Shown here piece by piece: positions 5,653-50,381 of a stretch of 64,000 nt of DNA; the stretch's first letter is position 1; every line of letters starts with the position of its first letter. The stretch spans positions 62,001-126,000 of the forward strand of contig NZ_BMIK01000009.1 in NCBI RefSeq assembly GCF_014642075.1. The letters are read 5' to 3'. The position numbers and the translations under genes were made by a program. The notes beneath the pieces are model-generated. The model searched no databases and was not told the origin of the DNA. It was given only the letters and a program-made list of their open reading frames with translations. The stretch is from Parapedobacter defluvii. GTDB lineage: Bacteria > Bacteroidota > Bacteroidia > Sphingobacteriales > Sphingobacteriaceae.

Positions 5653-6918
5653 ATGCAACTTTCAGCACCGGAAAAGGCACCGGAATTATTGGGCTACCTG
5701 CAACAGCAGCAGGAAAAGGGCATGGAGTGGGTCGTTTACGACTTTGAATCCGGAATCGGCAGCAGGTACGATTTTACCTGTTTCAAACGCCAACGCGATG
5801 CCCATGCCTTCGCCAATGCGGGGTTTGCCAACCCCCTTTTCCTCGATGTGGACACCATCGGGAACGCGAAAAGGAAACTCGAAGAAATCATCAGTCACAA
5901 TCAAAAGGAGGACACCATGAATCTCAACAATCTGGAGGACCTGAAAAGGTACCTCACCGAACTTAAATTCGACCCCACCCACATCACGGAACTGGAGGAA
6001 AAAATGACCAAGGAAATCCCCGCTTTCGACATCGCCGACCAGTACATCGGCGAATACAGGGGCAAGGCGGGCGCAATCGACCTCAATATCCCCGTGAGGC
6101 AGTCGAACCAATCCGGCAACTACTACATCAGCAAGTTTGACCTGACATTGACCAAGGCGAATCCCCTGCCGGAAGGCCATCGGTACTTCGTCGTATCCAA
6201 GGACCCCGAAAGCGGGAAAAAGCTGCACCGGGACTTCACCAGCCCGGCACAGGCCATCGAATACCTCAACGGGAAAACGGGGGAAAGGGAATTGGTCGCG
6301 GGCACCGGCCCGAGACCTAACGAAAGCACCGTGCTGGTACGCAAGGATGACGACAAGCTCATCTACAGCGCGAAGGATTTCCGCGAGACCTACCACGGCA
6401 AGCCGCTCACACAGGCGTTCTACATCAACGAGGGGCAGGGCTTCAGCCTGCCGGAGGCCCTGAACCTCATCCAGGGCCGGAGTGTGTACAAGGACAACCT
6501 GCTCACCGCGAACGGTGAACCCTACAAAGCCTACGTGGCCATCGACCGGGAGAATCCCCTTTCCACCGGAACGGGCTACCGCTACCAGCAATTCCGCGAC
6601 CCCGAATACGGCTTCGACATTGAAAAGACGCTCATGCAATACGACGTAAAGGGGCTGGACAACCAGGAATCGAAAAACAGGCTGATAGGGCTGCTCAAGG
6701 GGGGTAACCGTGTCCCCGTGGTGATGGAAAAAAACGGGAAGCGGTACGATGTCACGATAGAATCCTCGCCGCGTTACAAGAACATCAACATCCTCAACAC
6801 GAAGGGTGAACCGCTGAAACGGGAATTTTTCGACCGTAACAGTACGCAGGAACTCAAGAACCCCGTACCGTTGAGAAAGGAATGGGATATGTCGCAGAAA
6901 CAGGGGATGCGGCTGTAA
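5653..6918 (+). CDS. DUF3945-family ICE protein
   Basis: The 421-residue soluble protein lies 7 bp after traN. From residue about 89 it reads as a typical Bacteroidota mobile-element protein, with the motif SLPEALNLIQGRSVYKDNLL and the segment YGFDIEKTLMQYDVKGL that characterise DUF3945-type proteins. An in-frame ATG at 5917 is preceded by a perfect AAAGGAGG, so a shorter form beginning MNLNNLEDLKRYL is possible. The first 88 residues (MQLSAPEKAPELLGYLQQQQ...) look like a separate small domain. Function is unknown. A GAAA-tetraloop terminator follows. Confidence 0.8.
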   Translation: MQLSAPEKAPELLGYLQQQQEKGMEWVVYDFESGIGSRYDFTCFKRQRDAHAFANAGFANPLFLDVDTIGNAKRKLEEIISHNQKEDTMNLNNLEDLKRYLTELKFDPTHITELEEKMTKEIPAFDIADQYIGEYRGKAGAIDLNIPVRQSNQSGNYYISKFDLTLTKANPLPEGHRYFVVSKDPESGKKLHRDFTSPAQAIEYLNGKTGERELVAGTGPRPNESTVLVRKDDDKLIYSAKDFRETYHGKPLTQAFYINEGQGFSLPEALNLIQGRSVYKDNLLTANGEPYKAYVAIDRENPLSTGTGYRYQQFRDPEYGFDIEKTLMQYDVKGLDNQESKNRLIGLLKGGNRVPVVMEKNGKRYDVTIESSPRYKNINILNTKGEPLKREFFDRNSTQELKNPVPLRKEWDMSQKQGMRL

Positions 6919-40870: not shown

Positions 40871-41194
40871 ACGATTTATTCCCATTACTTGTCTTTTGTC
40901 ATCAGAGTACAAACTAACGATCTGTATATAAATTTATTTTTTGAATGGTGATGAAGCGATCAGATTTTTCACTTGAATAAGTTTGGCTTTTGTGTTCAAG
41001 AACTCGCGAGCTCGGTTTATTCATTCCCCCTGTGTGATTGAATACATCATGTCGAGTTCATAAAACAATTCCTTTCCTCTAATGTTTGGTTTCATCCTTT
41101 TGAAACAATGTAAATAAAAAAGCTGATTTCCAATAATTTATTTATATCTTTACTGGCAATTAATTTATTTTATTTATTTTTTATTCAAAATGCC
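40871..41194. other. AT-rich leader region upstream of cold-shock gene
   Basis: The 320 bases before the cold-shock gene are AT-rich with no gene. Just before the start there is TATCTTTA near 41150, a weak match to the Bacteroidota -7 box, and a long AT-rich leader, as expected for cold-shock mRNAs. No precise promoter was assigned. Confidence 0.4.
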
Positions 41195-41386
41195 ATGCAA
41201 GAAGGCGTAGTAAAATTTTTCAATGAGACCAAAGGATTCGGTTTCATCACCCCTAATGACGGTGGACGTGACGTGTTTGTTCATTCTTCAGGGTTGAAAG
41301 ACCGTGTTCGTGAAAACGACGACGTTTCATTTGAAGTTGCACAAGGCCAAAAAGGTCTTAACGCAGTAAATGTAAAATTGATTTAG
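41195..41386 (+). CDS. Cold-shock protein (CspA family)
   Basis: The 63-residue product is a complete cold-shock domain: KGFGFI (RNP1) at about residues 13-18 and VFVHSS (RNP2) at about 27-32, with the initial strand [14 protein letters not shown]. These proteins are single-stranded nucleic-acid-binding chaperones of mRNA. The gene stands alone and is followed by a strong terminator, so it is monocistronic. The AT-rich leader upstream suggests post-transcriptional control, as usual for csp genes. Confidence 0.95.
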
Positions 41387-41410
41387 ATCCATTTTTCAGA
41401 TATTGTACAA

Positions 41411-41449
41411 AAACCACCCGGGCGATTATCTCCGGGTGGTTTTTTTTTA
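41411..41449 (+). terminator. Rho-independent terminator of the cold-shock gene
   Basis: AAACCACCCGG pairs with CCGGGTGGTTT (11 bp) around a short loop and is followed by nine T residues. Confidence 0.95.
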
Positions 41450-42659: not shown

Positions 42660-43694
42660 ATGGCTTATTCACTGTATTTACCCCAAAGGGGAAAGCGAGA
42701 TTTCCGGGGCAAAGCGATCCTGGCCGCCGACATTGGCGGTACCAAGACCAGTTTAGGTTTGTTTGAAGTGCAGGGTGATGTGCTTTCACTCGTGCGCGAA
42801 GCTACCTTTTCATCCAAAGCATATGCGACGTTCGAAGAGGTGGTAGCAAAATTCCTTGAAAACAATCCGGACGTTCCATACACCCTATCCATCGGTGTTG
42901 CGGGACCTGTTTTGGATAACCAGGTGAAGCTGACAAACCTCTCATGGGAGCTGGAGGGCCATCGGCTGGAACGTACGTTAGGTTTCGACCGTGTTGTCCT
43001 GCTCAATGACCTGGAAGCCACCGCCTATGGGTTGGCTGGCTTGGGGCCGGAAGATATCGCGACGGTATTCGATCCTGGGAGGATCATACTGGGCAACATG
43101 GCGATCCTTGCTCCCGGTACCGGGTTGGGCGAAGCAGGCTTGTTTTGGGATGGCGAGGCTTACCGCCCGTTTGCGACCGAGGGCGGACACAGTGATTTTG
43201 CTCCCCGAACAGCGCTTGACATTGAGCTACAGGGATACCTGAAGGAGATTACCGATATCGTGAGTTGGGAGCATGTAGTATCCGGTCCGGGTATCTCTCG
43301 GATTTACCGTTTCCTGCGCGATGTAAGAGGCCATAAAGAACCTGCGTGGCTGACTGAAAATTTCAAGAATAGCAGCGATCCCGCTGCCGTGATCAGCCAT
43401 GCGGCGATGCGTGAACTGGACGCTACCTGTATCAAGACCATGGAATTATTCGTAGGCTACATGGCACGTGAAGCCGCAAGCCAGGTACTGAAACACAAGG
43501 CTACGGCTGGGCTTCTACTGGGTGGGGGCATACCGCCCCGGATTTATCCGTTGCTGCGTAAGGAGTTGTTCCGCGAGCAGTTTATCCAAAACTCCAGCAT
43601 GGCAGAACTGCTGGAGGAAACGGCTATTAACGTGATATTAAATAGCAAGGCTGCGCTGATTGGAGCGGCTTACTTTGGTGCTTTCGGACAATAA
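42660..43694 (+). CDS. glk: Glucokinase
   Basis: The 344-residue protein matches the Glk (PF02685) family: phosphate-1 motif AADIGGTKTSLGL (about 21-33), SIGVAGPVLDNQ, NDLEATAYGLAGL, LAPGTGLGEAGLF and the C-terminal LLLGGGIPPRI. It phosphorylates glucose to glucose-6-phosphate using ATP at the entry to glycolysis. The first 20 residues (MAYSLYLPQRGKRDFRGKAI) are an extension; the canonical start would be near AADIGG. The gene is monocistronic between the desaturase and the convergent fluoride operon. Confidence 0.93.
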   Translation: MAYSLYLPQRGKRDFRGKAILAADIGGTKTSLGLFEVQGDVLSLVREATFSSKAYATFEEVVAKFLENNPDVPYTLSIGVAGPVLDNQVKLTNLSWELEGHRLERTLGFDRVVLLNDLEATAYGLAGLGPEDIATVFDPGRIILGNMAILAPGTGLGEAGLFWDGEAYRPFATEGGHSDFAPRTALDIELQGYLKEITDIVSWEHVVSGPGISRIYRFLRDVRGHKEPAWLTENFKNSSDPAAVISHAAMRELDATCIKTMELFVGYMAREAASQVLKHKATAGLLLGGGIPPRIYPLLRKELFREQFIQNSSMAELLEETAINVILNSKAALIGAAYFGAFGQ

Positions 43695-43707: not shown

Positions 43708-44148
43708 CTATTTCATCCGCGGTGTCGTGACCAGCACGGGTATTTCCGCATGCTTAATGACGTATTCTGCGATTGACCCAGTTAAGATCCGATTAAGCCC
43801 GCTGCGGCCATGCGTACCCATGACAATCATATCGGCCTCCCATTCCTTTGAGAGGTTGATGATTTCCTCTTCCGGTAAACCCTCGGGTGTGAAGCGATAT
43901 ACCTTATCTATCCCGTCGTACAGATCGATGTATTGGTTGATGGCATGTTCGGCTTCGGCCAGTAATAGGCTATGTTGCTGACGTTCGGTCGTGCCTAAGT
44001 CAGGGTTGGCCTGTTCTTGCATTTTGTTGACTGCGTAGAGAATGCCTACTTCGGCGTTCAGCTTACGGGCCATTTCAAAACCCACCCGTGCGGCTTTCAT
44101 CGAATAGGAACTATCGTCAACGGCGATGAGGATTCGTTTATAGTTCAT
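43708..44148 (-). CDS. Universal stress protein (UspA), last gene of fluoride operon
   Basis: The 146-residue protein has a single Usp domain: start MNYKRILIAVDDSSYSMKAA and the ATP-binding-type GTHGRSGLNRILTGSIAEYV (G-2x-G-9x-G-S/T pattern). It follows crcB by 7 bp and is therefore probably expressed with the fluoride genes. Usp proteins of this type usually bind ATP and contribute to stress survival. A specific link to fluoride is inferred only from the operon. Confidence 0.92.
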   Translation of the reverse strand: MNYKRILIAVDDSSYSMKAARVGFEMARKLNAEVGILYAVNKMQEQANPDLGTTERQQHSLLLAEAEHAINQYIDLYDGIDKVYRFTPEGLPEEEIINLSKEWEADMIVMGTHGRSGLNRILTGSIAEYVIKHAEIPVLVTTPRMK

Positions 44149-44936: not shown

Positions 44937-46331
44937 TTACTTGTTTTTCTTTTTGCGCGCAATCCTGTATCGGGCCAACCTCCGGTTTAGGTAATGCTCC
45001 CGTCTTCTGTTTGCGTCAGCCAGCGAACCGTCCGCTGAAAAATAAGCATCGAATATCTTGGGTACTTCAATTCGCTGTGCCGTGTAAATTCCCGAATGGC
45101 CGCTGAAGAAATAGGCGGTGAAACAGGCGACGGCATAAAAAAGTGTGTATTCTCCTCCGAACAGTTCAATGCCCATCAGGGTACAGGCCAACGGCGTATT
45201 TGTAGCCCCGGAAAATACAGCAATGAAACCGAGGGCAGCAAATAAACTAACGGGGGCACTCATCAGACTAGATAGGGTGTTACCGAGCGTGGCGCCGATG
45301 TAAAAGAGGGGGGTTACTTCACCTCCTTTAAATCCGGTACCCAGGGTAAGGGTTGTGTAGATGGTTTTCCATAGCCAGCTCCAGCCATCGGCCCCATCCT
45401 GTTGGAAAGCAGACGGTATCGTTACAGCGCCCGGGTATTCCGCATCTACCCCTAGGCTCAGGTAGTCGGGTTTGCCGTTTAGCTGGCTGAGCAGGATGAT
45501 GATGATTCCCCCGATGACGGGAATCAACCACTTGATGGAAATAGCCTTTAGAAAAAAGGCTTTGATCCGGTGGGCCATCTCGGCAAAAAGGTAACTGGCA
45601 AGCCCGAAAGCGATTGAAGCGATGATTACTTTCAGTAACAACAGCAGATCGATGCCGAAGTACTCCGAAAGCCAGTATCCGGACGTAGTTTGGACGTAAT
45701 CGATGTGATAGTGGGTATGATGTACCTGCCAGGCCGACACCGATAGATCGCCAACAATACCTGCGATTAGACAGGGTAACAGGGCATCGTACCGTATCCG
45801 CCCGATGGCTAACACTTCCAATGCAAAAACAGCGCCGGTAAGCGGCGTACCGAATACCGCTCCGAAGCCAGCGGCGACACCCGAAGTCAGTACAATGGCC
45901 ATGTCACGCCCGCTTAGGCCAAACCATTTGCCGAATAGCTGGGCAACACTTCCACCAATCTGTACGGCGGTGCCCTCGCGTCCTGCCGACCCTCCGAAAA
46001 GGTGGGTAATAACCGTGGCAAACAACACAATTGGTGCCATACGTTTGGGCACTCCACCCCCAGGTTGATGGATCTCATCCATGATCAGGTTGTTGCCTTT
46101 TTCCGAGGATTTTCCAATAGACTTGTAGAGTAGATGGATGAGGACACCGGCTAAAGGCAAAAAAAGCAACAGCCACGGATGGTCAAACCGAAAATGAATT
46201 GCCAGGTTCAGCGACCATAAAAAAAAGGCAACCACACTGCCAATCACGACGGCAATCGGTATAACAATTAACGACCATTTGAAAAGCTGCTTGAATATCG
46301 ATACGTGTTCTATCCGGAAGAATTTATTCAT
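44937..46331 (-). CDS. CLC-F fluoride/proton antiporter
   Basis: The 464-residue CLC-family protein has the fluoride-type signature: the usual GSGIP motif is replaced by GNNLI (residues 79-83), and the gating segment is GREGT (117-121, gating Glu119) followed by VQIGGSVAQLFGKW. CLC-F antiporters expel fluoride in exchange for protons. Ten or so hydrophobic segments are visible. It is the first gene of an operon with DUF190, crcB and uspA, preceded by a fluoride riboswitch 218 bp upstream. Confidence 0.93.
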   Translation of the reverse strand: MNKFFRIEHVSIFKQLFKWSLIVIPIAVVIGSVVAFFLWSLNLAIHFRFDHPWLLLFLPLAGVLIHLLYKSIGKSSEKGNNLIMDEIHQPGGGVPKRMAPIVLFATVITHLFGGSAGREGTAVQIGGSVAQLFGKWFGLSGRDMAIVLTSGVAAGFGAVFGTPLTGAVFALEVLAIGRIRYDALLPCLIAGIVGDLSVSAWQVHHTHYHIDYVQTTSGYWLSEYFGIDLLLLLKVIIASIAFGLASYLFAEMAHRIKAFFLKAISIKWLIPVIGGIIIILLSQLNGKPDYLSLGVDAEYPGAVTIPSAFQQDGADGWSWLWKTIYTTLTLGTGFKGGEVTPLFYIGATLGNTLSSLMSAPVSLFAALGFIAVFSGATNTPLACTLMGIELFGGEYTLFYAVACFTAYFFSGHSGIYTAQRIEVPKIFDAYFSADGSLADANRRREHYLNRRLARYRIARKKKNK

Positions 46332-46521
46332 TTATTTTTCTGTTTAAGTGGGTTTGATTTTTTACGGGCATGCGATGCTGTCCCAAACCGATTAGAAGTC
46401 ACGGTGTCTCCAAATGGCGGAACAGCTAGGAAAAAACGGCAAAACGGAAACCGAGAGCAGGAGACAGGACTGAAAAGGATGTTAAGATTTCTGATTATGT
46501 ACATCTACAAACTTAAATAAG

Positions 46522-46537
46522 GGCCCCGCATTGGGCC
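46522..46537 (-). terminator. Hairpin after the riboswitch (possible expression platform)
   Basis: On the minus strand GGCCC-AATGCG-GGGCC forms a 5-bp GC hairpin about a dozen bases after the riboswitch end. The following sequence is U-poor (CTTATTTAAG), so it is a weak terminator at best. It may be the switching element. Confidence 0.35.
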
Positions 46538-46548
46538 GTTAACCAATC

Positions 46549-46599
46549 TGTAGACGCCATCAGCTTTTTAGGGCGGTTTAATAGGAAGGCATCATTTCC
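46549..46599 (-). promoter_or_regulatory. Fluoride riboswitch (crcB motif)
   Basis: Read on the minus strand, the RNA has P1 as GGAA/UUCC, loop AUGAUGCC, the joining AUUAAACCGCC, and the conserved GCUGAUGGC..CUAC end. GAUGCC in the loop pairs fully with GGCGUC near the 3' end (one G-U), forming the pseudoknot that traps fluoride. The P3 stem is weak (A-C mismatches). It lies in the leader of the CLC-F/DUF190/crcB/uspA operon, which fits its known targets. Confidence 0.88.
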
Positions 46600-46604
46600 T
46601 GTTC

Positions 46605-46634
46605 CAAAGGTAAATTAATTTTTGGTTATCCAAA
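46605..46634 (-). promoter_or_regulatory. Promoter of the fluoride operon
   Basis: On the minus strand TTTG (46631-46634) is followed after 18 bp by TACCTTTG (46605-46612), matching the Bacteroidota -33 TTTG / -7 TAnnTTTG consensus. The predicted start of transcription (about 46598-46601) coincides with the first base of the riboswitch P1 stem. Confidence 0.8.
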
Positions 46635-46796
46635 AAAAATGAAAGACGGGCCTATGTACGGCACGGGCTACACTTAACTGTTAAATTACGCTTATCTGTT
46701 AAATACTGCGTTTCATCGACCAAAGTAAACTGTCTGTGTGTCCGGATGGCGGATGGTGTCATCCTGTTCGATTTTTGGAGGAGATTAGTATAGTAT

Positions 46797-47777
46797 ATGA
46801 AGATTATCAAAGTTTTAGGCATGATCATGGGCGGTGTAGCCGTGTTTGTCACCATGGCCGGCATGTATGTGAATTGGTTTTATCCGCGGGTAGGCGAGGC
46901 ACCTTCGATTCAGGTGCCGCTTACCGTTTCTTCCATTGAGCGTGGCAGGTACCTCGCCAATCATGTTACGGTGTGCATGGATTGCCACAGTAAACGCGAT
47001 TGGACCGTGTTCAGCGGACCTATTGTGCCCGGGACGGAAGGAAGTGGTGGGGAAGTATTTAGCCGTGAGGCAGGCTTTCCCGGAGAGATTTACTCCAGCA
47101 ACCTTACCCCGCACAAGCTGGCGGACTGGACAGACGGTGAATTATACCGCGCAATATGTGCGGGGGTGGGGAAGGATGGCCGGGCCTTGTTTCCGTTGAT
47201 GGCTTACCGGCGTTTCGGACAGATGGCCAAAGAGGATGTATACAGCATCATGGCCTACATCCGGTCGCTCAAGCCGATTGAACAGGATCCACCGGTTTCC
47301 CGGTTGGATTTCCCCGTCAGCCTATTGAATAAATTAGGTCCGACCGAACCGGTACACGACGATCTTCCCGACAGTACCGATAGGGTACAGTATGGAAGTT
47401 ATTTGGTGAATGCGGCGGGTTGCGTAGACTGCCATAGTAAAGTAGACAAGGGAAGTGTTGTGGAAGGTACGGAATTTGGCGGTGGAATGGAATTTAGGCA
47501 GCCGGGCGGAATCATCAGGGCTCCAAACATTACCCGGCATGAAACGGCGGGAATAGGTGGCTGGACCCAGGAGCTGTTTGTGCAGAAATTTAAAAACTTT
47601 GATCCCTCCAGCCATACGTTGCCGAAATTGGGGAAGGATGACCTGATATCCCCCATGCCCTGGGCCATGTATGCCGGTATGACGGAGAATGATCTCGAAG
47701 CCATTTATGTTTTCCTTCGCAGCATGGAACCAAAGGATAACCGCGTCGTTGTCCGGGAGGCCGTTGGCCATCCATGA
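46797..47777 (+). CDS. Membrane-anchored dihaem cytochrome c
   Basis: The 326-residue protein has an N-terminal membrane anchor (about 1-28, IIKVLGMIMGGVAVFVTMAG) and two cytochrome c domains with CMDCH (residues 60-64) and CVDCH (209-213) haem motifs. Each is followed by an axial-ligand Met candidate (LFPLMAYRRFG and SPMPWAMYAGM). It resembles alcohol-dehydrogenase-type or gluconate-dehydrogenase-associated cytochromes, which pass electrons to the terminal oxidase. No dehydrogenase partner is next to it. Confidence 0.88.
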   Translation: MKIIKVLGMIMGGVAVFVTMAGMYVNWFYPRVGEAPSIQVPLTVSSIERGRYLANHVTVCMDCHSKRDWTVFSGPIVPGTEGSGGEVFSREAGFPGEIYSSNLTPHKLADWTDGELYRAICAGVGKDGRALFPLMAYRRFGQMAKEDVYSIMAYIRSLKPIEQDPPVSRLDFPVSLLNKLGPTEPVHDDLPDSTDRVQYGSYLVNAAGCVDCHSKVDKGSVVEGTEFGGGMEFRQPGGIIRAPNITRHETAGIGGWTQELFVQKFKNFDPSSHTLPKLGKDDLISPMPWAMYAGMTENDLEAIYVFLRSMEPKDNRVVVREAVGHP

Positions 47778-47791
47778 GGGGGCAATCGGGC

Positions 47792-48448
47792 TTAGCCATC
47801 GCCTGCCTGCAGCAACCCCATGCCGATGGCTTTTTTTACGAGCGTAACCGAATTGGGTACCTCAAACTTTTGCAGGAGATTGTAGCGGTGGCTTTCCACG
47901 GTTTGCATGCTGATAAAAAGCTTTGCGGAGATTTGCTGGGTGGTGAGCCCTTCGCTGATCCAATGCAATATTTCCTTCTCGCGCGAGGTGAGGCGAGGCA
48001 TTTTCTGAGCAATACCTGAGGAGGAAAAAATAAGCTCGCGGACTTCTTCGCTCATGACACACTGCCCTTTCAACACCTGTTCGATGGCGTTCCGCAAATC
48101 CTGGAAAGAAACATTTTTTAACAGGTAGCCGTTGGCGCCGTGGCTGAGCATCTCGTGGATGATGTGCTTCTCGGTATGGTTGCTGAGTGCGACAACCTTG
48201 TTTTTTTTGTGCATGCGGTGGATCGCTTGGCAAATTTCGATACCGCTTAGGCTACCCGGCAGGCTGATATCCAGGAATACGATATCAGAAGGGTGCTGCT
48301 GCAAAAAGTCCAGCGCATCCTGCCCGTTGTCAAAGGAGGCCAATACCACCACGTTTTCTATTTTTGCTAAAACGCTGGTAAGCCCCTCGACAAAGATTCC
48401 ATGGTCTTCAACCAACACAACGGTTATTTCATTTTTTTTCGGCGACAT
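47792..48448 (-). CDS. NarL/LuxR-family response regulator (second pair)
   Basis: ATG 48448 gives 218 residues; the longer frame to 48496 is not needed and overlaps the kinase. Receiver: Asp14/15 region (VLVEDHGIFVEGL) and phospho-acceptor Asp60 in VFLDISLPG, Lys in LLKNVSF. C-terminus: LuxR helix-turn-helix (TSREKEILHWISEGLTTQQI, FISMQTVESHRYNLLQKF). It overlaps the upstream TPR histidine kinase by 20 bp and is its cognate regulator. It lies convergent with the cytochrome gene, 14 bp apart. Confidence 0.92.
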   Translation of the reverse strand: MSPKKNEITVVLVEDHGIFVEGLTSVLAKIENVVVLASFDNGQDALDFLQQHPSDIVFLDISLPGSLSGIEICQAIHRMHKKNKVVALSNHTEKHIIHEMLSHGANGYLLKNVSFQDLRNAIEQVLKGQCVMSEEVRELIFSSSGIAQKMPRLTSREKEILHWISEGLTTQQISAKLFISMQTVESHRYNLLQKFEVPNSVTLVKKAIGMGLLQAGDG

Positions 48449-50381
48449 TGATTTCAATATTAACGATAACCCCTTTTTTCGGAACCGAATGCACATCGAT
48501 TTTTCCTTGCATGTATGCTACCCTTGACCGGATATTGCCCAATCCCATCCCATTTGTTTTCTTAGGATCGACATGTTGGGACATCCCCCTGCCATTGTCT
48601 TCGATGGTTATGTATACATGGTCCTGCACTTTGCTGCACTGTAAAAAAACTTCGGTGGCACCGGAATGTTTGGCTGCATTAGTCAGCAATTCCTGGACGA
48701 TCCGGTAAATCTCGATCTTCTGCTGTTGCGGTATGGCTTCACTTAGGTTTAATATTTCACAGGTGATCGCCATCTTGTCCGTAGTCATGACTTCGCACAG
48801 GTCCTTAATCGCATTGGCAAGACCTGACCTGATCAGTATTTCGGGAACCATGTTCCGTGCGATGCGCCGCAATTCATGTACGGAATCGTCCACCTGTGCA
48901 ATGATCTTTTCCAGCTCGACATGTTCCCCTTGCTGCTTATCGTGGTTGGCAACCGAAAGGTTCAGTTTGATCCCGGCTAATAGGCCACCCAAACCATCAT
49001 GCAAGTCCCGCGCAATGCGCTGGCGCTCTTTCTCTTCTCCCTGCAGCTGTGCTTTGGCAACCTGTATTTCCAGGTGTTGCTGGATGGCGTTGAGGCGTTG
49101 CGCCTCCCGCTTTTTCCGTTGCCGGTAGGCGTAGAAGGCAAACGCACCTACTAAGACAAATAAGCAGATCCCGAAATACAGAATAAGCCGTTGCACTTGG
49201 TTACGGTTTTGCAGGCGGAGCAGTTCCTTCTCCTTTTCCGCTACGCGGTATTTGGACTCCTGATCGGCAATGGCAACGGCGGTGCGCTTCATAAAGAAAC
49301 TGTCTGACACCTGTACGTACTCCATCAGCCGGTTGAACGCGGTATCATGCTGCCCTAATGCGGCTTCTGTCTTTGCCAGTTCAAACAATAGCAGTCTGAA
49401 ATTATTGGAGATCTCATAACCCTGCTGCAGGTTATAGGCTTTTTCGAGGAAGTGCTTGGCCTCGCCTAGCAACCCCTGCTGCTTATAGACCTGGGATTTT
49501 TCATAGGCAATACTAGCTTCGTCGTACGTACGCCGCAGTTGGTGGGCAATGGCCTCCCCTGTATCAAGGGCGGCGATGGCCTGCTTCCATTGTTTGCGCT
49601 TGGAATGATACATGCCCTCAACGAGGTAGTAGACGGGGAGGTAAGAAGAATCCCGGTCAACAGAAAGTATCTGGAAAGCTTGTGACAATGCTACTTGGGC
49701 GATGTGCAGGCTATCCTGCAGGATGTCTGATTTTGCCCTTTGTACGTAACATTCTGCAAGCAGGGAAGACGGTTCTCCGGCAGCGTTTAAGATGTCGATG
49801 GCTTTGTCATAATATTCGCCCGCCCGGGTATAATTTTTATAGTTCATGAAGACTGCGCCCAGATCCATGTAGTTCCATGCCACCCGTTTCTGGTCGCCCG
49901 CGGCTTGGGCATAGGGGATAGCCTTGGAAAGTATCAGATCGACAAAGGCTTCACTGTTGTCCTTACGTTGTTCCAATGCCCCATAGTTGTGCCACGTTCT
50001 GGACCGGTATTGCAGGGCTTCTTTTGATGAAAAATGCATTAACAGGCTATCTGCCGATAAGTAATCCTGTTGACTTTTTATCACGTCGTAACTGAAATAG
50101 GCACCGGCCCGGTAAAAATGGGCAAGCCCACGTAGAAAGGAATTTTTTGGGGTATATTGGAACGAGCGGTCGGCAAATTGAACGGATTGTGCGCTGTCCC
50201 GCTCTGACCAGTAGTCCGATAACTGGAAAAGCAGACGGGCTTTCGCACTGTCTGCCGCTGCCGCTGCCACCCGGGTCAGCAAGCTGTCCGTATAGGGGTT
50301 GCCCGTTTTTGATTGGGCATTTGCAGGCCAATCAAACGTCCACCCGGCAATTAGTACGGATATAGCGAGTATTGTTTTCAA
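48429..50381 (-). CDS. TPR-containing HisKA_3 sensor histidine kinase (second copy)
   Basis: The 650-residue kinase has a signal peptide (about 1-22, ending ANAQ), periplasmic TPR-like repeats (about 40-350), a membrane helix (about 399-419), and HisKA_3 with His461 (RIARDLHDGLGGLLAGIKLN). The HATPase domain has IEDNGRGM and GMGLGNIRSR. It is very similar in architecture and motifs to the kinase at 30796, so the two are paralogs. The regulator gene overlaps its end. Confidence 0.92.
   Translation of the reverse strand: MKTILAISVLIAGWTFDWPANAQSKTGNPYTDSLLTRVAAAAADSAKARLLFQLSDYWSERDSAQSVQFADRSFQYTPKNSFLRGLAHFYRAGAYFSYDVIKSQQDYLSADSLLMHFSSKEALQYRSRTWHNYGALEQRKDNSEAFVDLILSKAIPYAQAAGDQKRVAWNYMDLGAVFMNYKNYTRAGEYYDKAIDILNAAGEPSSLLAECYVQRAKSDILQDSLHIAQVALSQAFQILSVDRDSSYLPVYYLVEGMYHSKRKQWKQAIAALDTGEAIAHQLRRTYDEASIAYEKSQVYKQQGLLGEAKHFLEKAYNLQQGYEISNNFRLLLFELAKTEAALGQHDTAFNRLMEYVQVSDSFFMKRTAVAIADQESKYRVAEKEKELLRLQNRNQVQRLILYFGICLFVLVGAFAFYAYRQRKKREAQRLNAIQQHLEIQVAKAQLQGEEKERQRIARDLHDGLGGLLAGIKLNLSVANHDKQQGEHVELEKIIAQVDDSVHELRRIARNMVPEILIRSGLANAIKDLCEVMTTDKMAITCEILNLSEAIPQQQKIEIYRIVQELLTNAAKHSGATEVFLQCSKVQDHVYITIEDNGRGMSQHVDPKKTNGMGLGNIRSRVAYMQGKIDVHSVPKKGVIVNIEINVAEKK

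Follow-up and report, generated by a model that had tools for sequence, protein, structure and literature searches.

Bacteroidia ribosomes fail to recognise Shine-Dalgarno (SD) sites (PMC9976891; published work is cited here from the part of each article's text that was available), and initiation in this class is tuned by mRNA structure (PMC6847099). Therefore, a riboswitch that acts by hiding an SD site would not be expected to function there in its usual manner, and a fluoride riboswitch in front of a fluoride operon of Parapedobacter defluvii raises the question of how ligand binding could reach the genes. The window analysed here is a stretch of 64,000 nt, to which the coordinates refer, and the whole riboswitch and operon lie on its minus strand. 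The aptamer and the first gene, encoding a CLC-type antiporter, are separated by 212 nt, which the preliminary description took as a plain leader and which likely hold an expression platform and an overlapping 58-codon ORF (Table 1). Based on these features, the locus is probably a fluoride-sensing translational ON switch in which the leader ORF relays the signal through translational coupling. This offers a testable answer to the question: the start codon itself would be hidden, with the ligand-binding strand as its lid, and the signal would pass through a leader ORF of arbitrary sequence.

Table 1 Positions of the promoter, riboswitch, leader and operon features in the window
Feature	Position	Strand	Basis or remark
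-33 box TTTG, Bacteroidota promoter	46631..46634	-	sequence pattern
-7 box TACCTTTG	46605..46612	-	N18 spacer to -33 box; predicted +1 = A46600
Fluoride riboswitch aptamer (RF01734)	46544..46608	-	42.0 bits, gathering score 34
Pseudoknot 5' strand GAUGCC, in P1 loop	46588..46593	-	sequence
Pseudoknot 3' strand GGCGUC, common to aptamer and anti-aptamer helix	46553..46558	-	sequence
Anti-aptamer helix 5' strand GCGUCUACAGAUU	46545..46557	-	13 uninterrupted pairs including G-U, -16.4 kcal/mol (predicted)
GC hairpin GGCCC-AAUGCG-GGGCC, nested in anti-aptamer helix loop	46522..46537	-	weak terminator-like tail CUUAUUU
Anti-aptamer helix 3' strand AGUUUGUAGAUGU, contains leader ORF AUG	46501..46513	-	duplex and register counts (predicted)
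Leader (relay) ORF, 58 codons	46328..46504	-	AUG 46504-46502; UGA 46330-46328 overlaps CLC AUG (AUGA)
CLC-F fluoride/proton antiporter, 464 aa	44937..46331	-	Voltage_CLC above Pfam cut-off; solved relatives
DUF190 protein, 122 aa	44544..44912	-	above Pfam cut-off
CrcB/Fluc fluoride channel, 123 aa	44156..44527	-	PF02537 and TIGR00494 above cut-off
Universal stress protein (Usp), 146 aa, last gene	43708..44148	-	above Pfam cut-off

The crcB-type aptamer proposed in the preliminary description was confirmed by the covariance-model search, in which RF01734 matched over its full length (positions 1-64, E 7.1e-9) and above its gathering score; the genome contained no other match at E up to 0.001. 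The sequence contained a 5-bp P1 stem (AGGAA/UUCCU, 46600-46596 with 46587-46583) and the complete GAUGCC/GGCGUC pseudoknot described earlier, with six pairs, one of them G-U. Judged by the model score, P1 and the pseudoknot, the element is a fluoride riboswitch, and we infer that it binds fluoride.

In a flavobacterial map of transcription start sites, the TAnnTTTG box lies at -12 to -5 (PMC9723704). Because TACCTTTG ends at 46605, the predicted +1 is the first base of P1, and the aptamer would therefore have no 5' tail. RF01734 positions 1-8 (window 46608-46601) coincide with the promoter and precede the predicted +1, so they probably do not form part of the transcript; the model's 5' flank may likewise be untranscribed in many related loci. 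The promoter pattern alone was not significant, with one match in the window against 0.94 expected. Of the 221 related loci with enough upstream DNA, 147 had an exact TAnnTTTG within the 38-nt segment surrounding the P1 start, whereas only 6 had one in a more upstream control segment. Therefore, the promoter is meaningful by its position and not by its pattern, and the earlier claim that transcription begins at the first base of the aptamer holds as a prediction.

The four genes named earlier (CLC-F, DUF190, CrcB and UspA) all passed their Pfam cut-offs. They are separated by 24, 16 and 7 nt, and a convergent glucokinase gene (42660-43694, +) lies downstream of the last one. The best solved relatives of the CLC protein were CLC-type fluoride/proton antiporters (6d0j, E 6e-56), compared with E 3.7e-5 or weaker for other solved CLC proteins; by sequence comparison, it is far closer to the solved fluoride CLCs than to other CLCs. 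The GNNLI and GREGT motifs, which we take to be markers of CLC-F, were present in its translation as described. CrcB scored 104.9 bits against TIGR00494 (cut-off 80.45) and 108.8 bits against PF02537 (cut-off 32.9). The best named relatives of the CLC protein were from Sphingobacterium, Pontibacter and Pedobacter. Relatives with 57-59% identity were also seen in Vibrio, Photobacterium and an assembly labelled Beijerinckiaceae (L083, L085, L094 and L063), reflecting either horizontal transfer or, for the Beijerinckiaceae-labelled one, a mislabelled assembly.

The riboswitch, the promoter position and the operon of the preliminary description thus all held, but the rarity it ascribed to the gene combination did not. 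The order CLC-DUF190-CrcB-Usp is instead a recurring module, found in 6 of 66 related stretches (L055, L057, L080, L157, L162 and L169), a count in which several stretches end too near CLC for the module to show. Enolase lay upstream of the module in five of these six loci (L055, L057, L157, L162 and L169), whereas the window operon has no enolase. Additional riboswitches were observed in some related loci. L055 carries two in tandem (568-619 and 1399-1450), each with its own small leader ORF and Usp gene, followed by enolase, CLC, DUF190, CrcB and Usp; by eye, the stretch between enolase and CLC looks like an inorganic pyrophosphatase. In L066, a second fluoride riboswitch (2014-2095) is located further down the cluster, before CrcB, and in L080 a second one (6582-6649), which was missed by the pattern search, precedes a second, more distant CLC.

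Within the window leader, GCGUCUACAGAUU covers most of the pseudoknot strand and was predicted to pair with AGUUUGUAGAUGU (Table 1). This anti-aptamer helix and the pseudoknot are mutually exclusive. All folding predictions were made without pseudoknots, and the pseudoknot-free fold of the first 130 nt (-34.5 kcal/mol) used the anti-aptamer helix. The AUG of the leader ORF lies inside the helix and was predicted to pair with the pseudoknot strand; its predicted unpaired probability rose from 0.002 to 0.40 when this strand was blocked.

Under the relay mechanism that we consider probable, transcription would start at the first aptamer base. Without fluoride, GGCGUC and the following UACAG are predicted to pair with AGUUUGUAGAUGU, which would bury the AUG of the 58-codon ORF. 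With fluoride, the GAUGCC/GGCGUC pseudoknot would form and remove its strand from the helix, exposing the AUG. Ribosomes would then translate the leader ORF, pass at the AUGA overlap to the CLC-F start and go on to DUF190, CrcB and Usp. Leader translation may also keep Rho away from the C-rich, G-poor leader. The computed part of this mechanism comprises the helix that competes with the pseudoknot, the start codon it contains, the open frame with its stop position, and the finding that the same layout recurs in other loci; that ribosomes translate the ORF, that coupling occurs and that Rho takes any part is inferred.

The GC hairpin nested in the loop of the helix suggests another mechanism, a transcriptional switch in which this hairpin and its CUUAUUU tail form an aptamer-controlled intrinsic terminator and the small ORF is there by chance. 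A terminator-like site is indeed present, the fluoride riboswitch of Bacillus cereus acts on transcription, and a transcriptional assay showed function for 323 of the 1901 Rfam members examined (PMC13273304); moreover, the window ORF taken alone is not significant. However, the hairpin was also predicted to form when the pseudoknot strand was blocked. It thus fits either fold and would escape control by fluoride. Its stem has only five pairs and its tail only 5 T in 7 bases. The region 46200-46760 contained two terminator-like sites, this one and another inside the CLC gene, and no hairpin that was exclusive with the aptamer and followed by a U run; the anti-aptamer helix itself is followed by ACAUAAUC, which is not a U run. 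Because a transcriptional switch would also leave the in-helix start codons and the ORF stops at the next gene unexplained across loci, we regard it as unlikely.

The 58-codon ORF was absent from the program-made ORF list, and its pyrimidine-rich leader gave weak evidence when taken alone: among 5000 shuffles of the window leader, a stop no more than 30 nt from the CLC start arose in 24.9%, and the same AUGA overlap in 14.5%. Recurrence was therefore tested across related loci. Riboswitches at E up to 0.001 were found in 26 of 100 relatives. The genomes carrying one numbered 43 of 296 in the phylum, 55 of 395 in the class, 182 of 301 in the family, 132 of 149 in the genus g14 and 3 of 9 in the window's own genus. 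A total of 308 distinct loci were analysed, which are a subset of the tallied matches, several matches above the gathering score lying outside the set. The first recognised gene followed within 110 nt in 253 loci and after a longer leader in 53, and two loci had no gene call (L302 and L356). The sample was dominated by loci of one family, and some loci are not labelled Bacteroidota (L063, Beijerinckiaceae; L066, 'bacterium').

Loci below the gathering score (L023-L026, L030, L150 and L151) were left out, L300, L301, L304, L373, L258, L264 and L265 were also omitted, and 17 duplicates were removed. The pattern step lost five loci and L129, two of which were later recovered. Among 44 CLC relatives, the pattern found an aptamer in 36, and Rfam agreed for the 16 tested (14 with and 2 without). 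For L145 and L057, the gene starts were assigned manually on the basis of ORF lists.

A leader ORF was counted when at least one AUG or GUG, located within the helix strand or immediately downstream, opened a frame whose stop lay within 30 nt of the next gene start. This was the case in 40 of the 53 long leaders, compared with 9.1 expected from dinucleotide shuffles. When leaders were clustered at 62% identity, 21 of 32 clusters followed the rule against 4.9 expected, a number reached in none of 200,000 simulations. With a stricter limit of 12 nt, 30 of 53 long leaders (6.0 expected) and 14 of 32 clusters (3.3 expected) still qualified. The two other frames satisfied the 30-nt limit in 12 and 10 of 53 loci, slightly more than in shuffles, and in 7 and 6 of 32 clusters.

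The excess was found both within genus g14 (9 of 13 clusters, 3.1 expected) and outside it (12 of 19, 1.8 expected), where 8 of 15 clusters remained against 1.0 expected after removal of the window and the hand-set loci. Removal of L145, L057 and L015 left 18 of 29 clusters (4.2 expected), and removal of five clusters (L128, L037, L038/L040, L352 and L034) left 19 of 27 (4.5 expected). Long-leader loci fetched after the idea had been fixed gave 17 of 22 against 3.2 expected; counted by newly found cluster, this later sample gave only 3 of 8 against 0.87 expected (P 0.023).

The 13 long leaders that failed the rule were L022, L037, L040, L058, L097, L128, L144, L260, L285, L327, L343, L350 and L352. 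Two of them were scored as misses by the fixed rule despite a GUG at or near the expected place. In L352, a GUG beside this place opens a frame that stops 8 nt into CLC; in L350, the GUG in the helix is in frame with CLC and reads straight into it, giving a 495-residue reading in which leader and gene are fused. At the other extreme of length, the leader ORF of L017 has three codons (GUG AAC GUU UAG) and lies immediately 5' of the CLC AUG.

Leader length varied with the first gene. All nine loci with enolase as the first recognised gene had a long leader (in L145, another gene lies between), compared with 35 of 258 loci with CLC first (Fisher P 4e-8, related loci being counted separately). One reading is that a relay ORF serves those genes whose start region cannot be adapted to the aptamer; if relay ORFs exist, genes with starts that cannot pair with the aptamer could come under fluoride control.

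The helix was also sought in the short-leader loci, over a fixed stretch and independently of the gene start. A helix of at least -6 kcal/mol strength was found in 230 of the 253 loci and was missing at that strength in the other 23; therefore, the platform is not universal. The first start codon lay 0-2 nt after the helix in 83 of the 230 (36%; shuffled sequence, 2.7%), and in 142 its position relative to the helix end was between -9 and +10 nt (62%; shuffled sequence, 19%). Over 171 distinct strands, the aptamer 3' strand paired with its own start region at a mean of -11.0 kcal/mol and with foreign ones at -7.6 kcal/mol; none of 5000 permutations gave a mean as low as the former, in a test that retains the shared ancestry of the loci. 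Duplex z-scores against shuffles averaged only -1.9, with 47% below -2.

When the pseudoknot strand was blocked, the predicted opening of the initiation region exceeded 0.1 in 102 of 306 loci, compared with 16 to 25 of 306 with random blocks. The predicted opening of the start codon itself rose on average from 0.18 to 0.34 in the long-leader class and barely changed in the short-leader class (0.51 to 0.53).

In 39 of 52 long-leader loci, one fixed register gave at least 8 of 10 pairs with the three bases of the start codon facing the pseudoknot strand, and 92% of cells in these 39 loci paired, compared with 30-45% when the register was slid. There is some circularity in this helix evidence, as the search for start codons was confined to the vicinity of the helix and pairing was the criterion by which the 39 loci were selected. 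Among 18 distinct helices, both sides had changed at one position, which was A-U in nine and G-C in six. Where the pseudoknot-strand base facing the start codon was C, the start was GUG in 36 loci and AUG, with a mismatch, in two. The window, with U in GGCGUC and an AUG start, was the only case of a C/GUG to U/AUG exchange.

Substitutions were spread evenly over the three codon positions in the three larger leader families (110/81/104, 50/46/40 and 350/330/328). The smaller families showed 9/9/9, 4/1/4, 1/1/0 and 23/16/23, and one, the L226 group, was uneven (11/23/5). Gap runs that were not multiples of three made up 55 of 55, 9 of 27 and 150 of 192 in the three larger families, counted over row pairs of one alignment and thus not independent. 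Despite these frame-shifting gaps, the leader frames end near the same place. Because substitutions in the larger families are even, the open frame, and not the peptide, seems from these alignments to have been conserved.

These patterns bear on the idea that the leader ORF encodes a functional small protein, which would account for an open frame of 58 codons and to which the few third-position changes of the L226 group could be added, although most changes in that group fall on the second position. The window peptide had no convincing Pfam family (best E 0.096), and the even substitutions and frame-shifting gaps of the larger families do not favour a conserved product. Given the substitution pattern and the lack of a family, we rejected this very improbable explanation. 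The leader might conceivably derive from a larger first gene; a blastn search against the fetched loci matched the aptamer part only in the 12 best hits, among which no such source was found.

Leader composition relates to a further alternative, in which the riboswitch gates translation or Rho access and the ORF is no relay: the untranslated leader would be Rho-terminated or degraded, and CLC would initiate independently. C exceeded G in 47 of 50 leaders of at least 80 nt, compared with 28 of 50 segments of equal length from the genes that follow, a comparison that is weak because it has no control with ordinary Bacteroidota leaders. A C-rich, G-poor leader fits, but does not show, attraction of Rho when untranslated, and the Mbox of Mycobacterium tuberculosis joins a translational platform with Rho (PMC12810186). 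The stop codons at the start of the next gene are not predicted by this alternative, which we therefore consider improbable.

Under the preferred relay reading, the layout would extend beyond the window. We lean towards a general platform of Bacteroidota in which the pseudoknot strand covers the start codon of a throw-away ORF whose frame and stop, and not its peptide, are selected. In the same reading, the start would mostly be GUG combined with a GGCGCC, GACGCC or GACACC strand, and AUG combined with GGCGUC as in the window.

Compared with known systems, the window shares with the RF01734 family an aptamer above the curated score, the CLC-F, CrcB and Usp genes and the expected ON logic. The members described in the available text of a 2026 survey work through a terminator or, in Burkholderia and Pseudomonas, at the translational level (PMC13273304), whereas in the window the leader ORF start codon is predicted to be masked by the pseudoknot strand itself, and the ribosomes of the lineage ignore SD sites. 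Words starting with 'Bacteroid' are absent from the main text of that survey, which covers 1901 fluoride riboswitches (PMC13273304). For Bacteroidota, a search of the open-licence literature found no paper dealing with the platforms of fluoride riboswitches or with leader ORFs gated by riboswitches. The riboswitch operon is real and correctly named, and its platform is described neither in the preliminary description nor in the literature found.

The nearest precedents are mycobacterial, and by analogy the working mode is closest to that of the ppe2 B12 riboswitch of M. tuberculosis, with the pe20 Mbox as another parallel. The ppe2 riboswitch has a translated out-of-frame uORF, uPPE2, with an AUGA overlap, and downstream translation occurs mainly by termination-reinitiation (PMC11260477). 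As with uPPE2, the start region of the window ORF is sequestered in one of two exclusive folds, here by prediction only, and the stop overlaps or abuts the downstream start, as AUGA in the window and within 30 nt in the long-leader loci counted above. According to the available text, however, ppe2 responds to another ligand and is an OFF switch that masks an SD-containing region, with a single, partly conserved uORF (PMC11260477), whereas the window system is an expected ON switch without an SD and the related loci have many different leader peptides. The pe20 Mbox likewise combines a translational platform on a small uORF, rv1805A, with Rho, but its uORF is highly conserved and its ligand is Mg2+ (PMC12810186).

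In gene content, the FRM fluoride operon of Enterobacter cloacae resembles the loci studied here, as it joins a fluoride riboswitch with crcB, uspA, eno and ppaC (PMC5533749). Enolase is common to this operon and the five enolase-bearing module loci; in the available text, CLC-F and DUF190 are not among the genes named for the FRM operon, and enolase is missing from the window operon.

If the relay reading is right, annotation may miss such leader ORFs or label them as hypothetical genes, and riboswitch surveys that seek terminators only will misclassify such loci.

Some further features were observed around the operon. A cytochrome c gene (46797-47777) lies divergently beside a regulator pair at 47792-50381 (-), which comprises a LuxR-type response regulator and, overlapping it upstream, a protein that by eye looks like a histidine kinase. 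In addition, the cspA thermoregulator model gave a sub-threshold score (26.6 bits against a cut-off of 78) at 41028-41445 (+), a region that ends in a terminator-like hairpin and, judged by eye, is probably a cold-shock gene.
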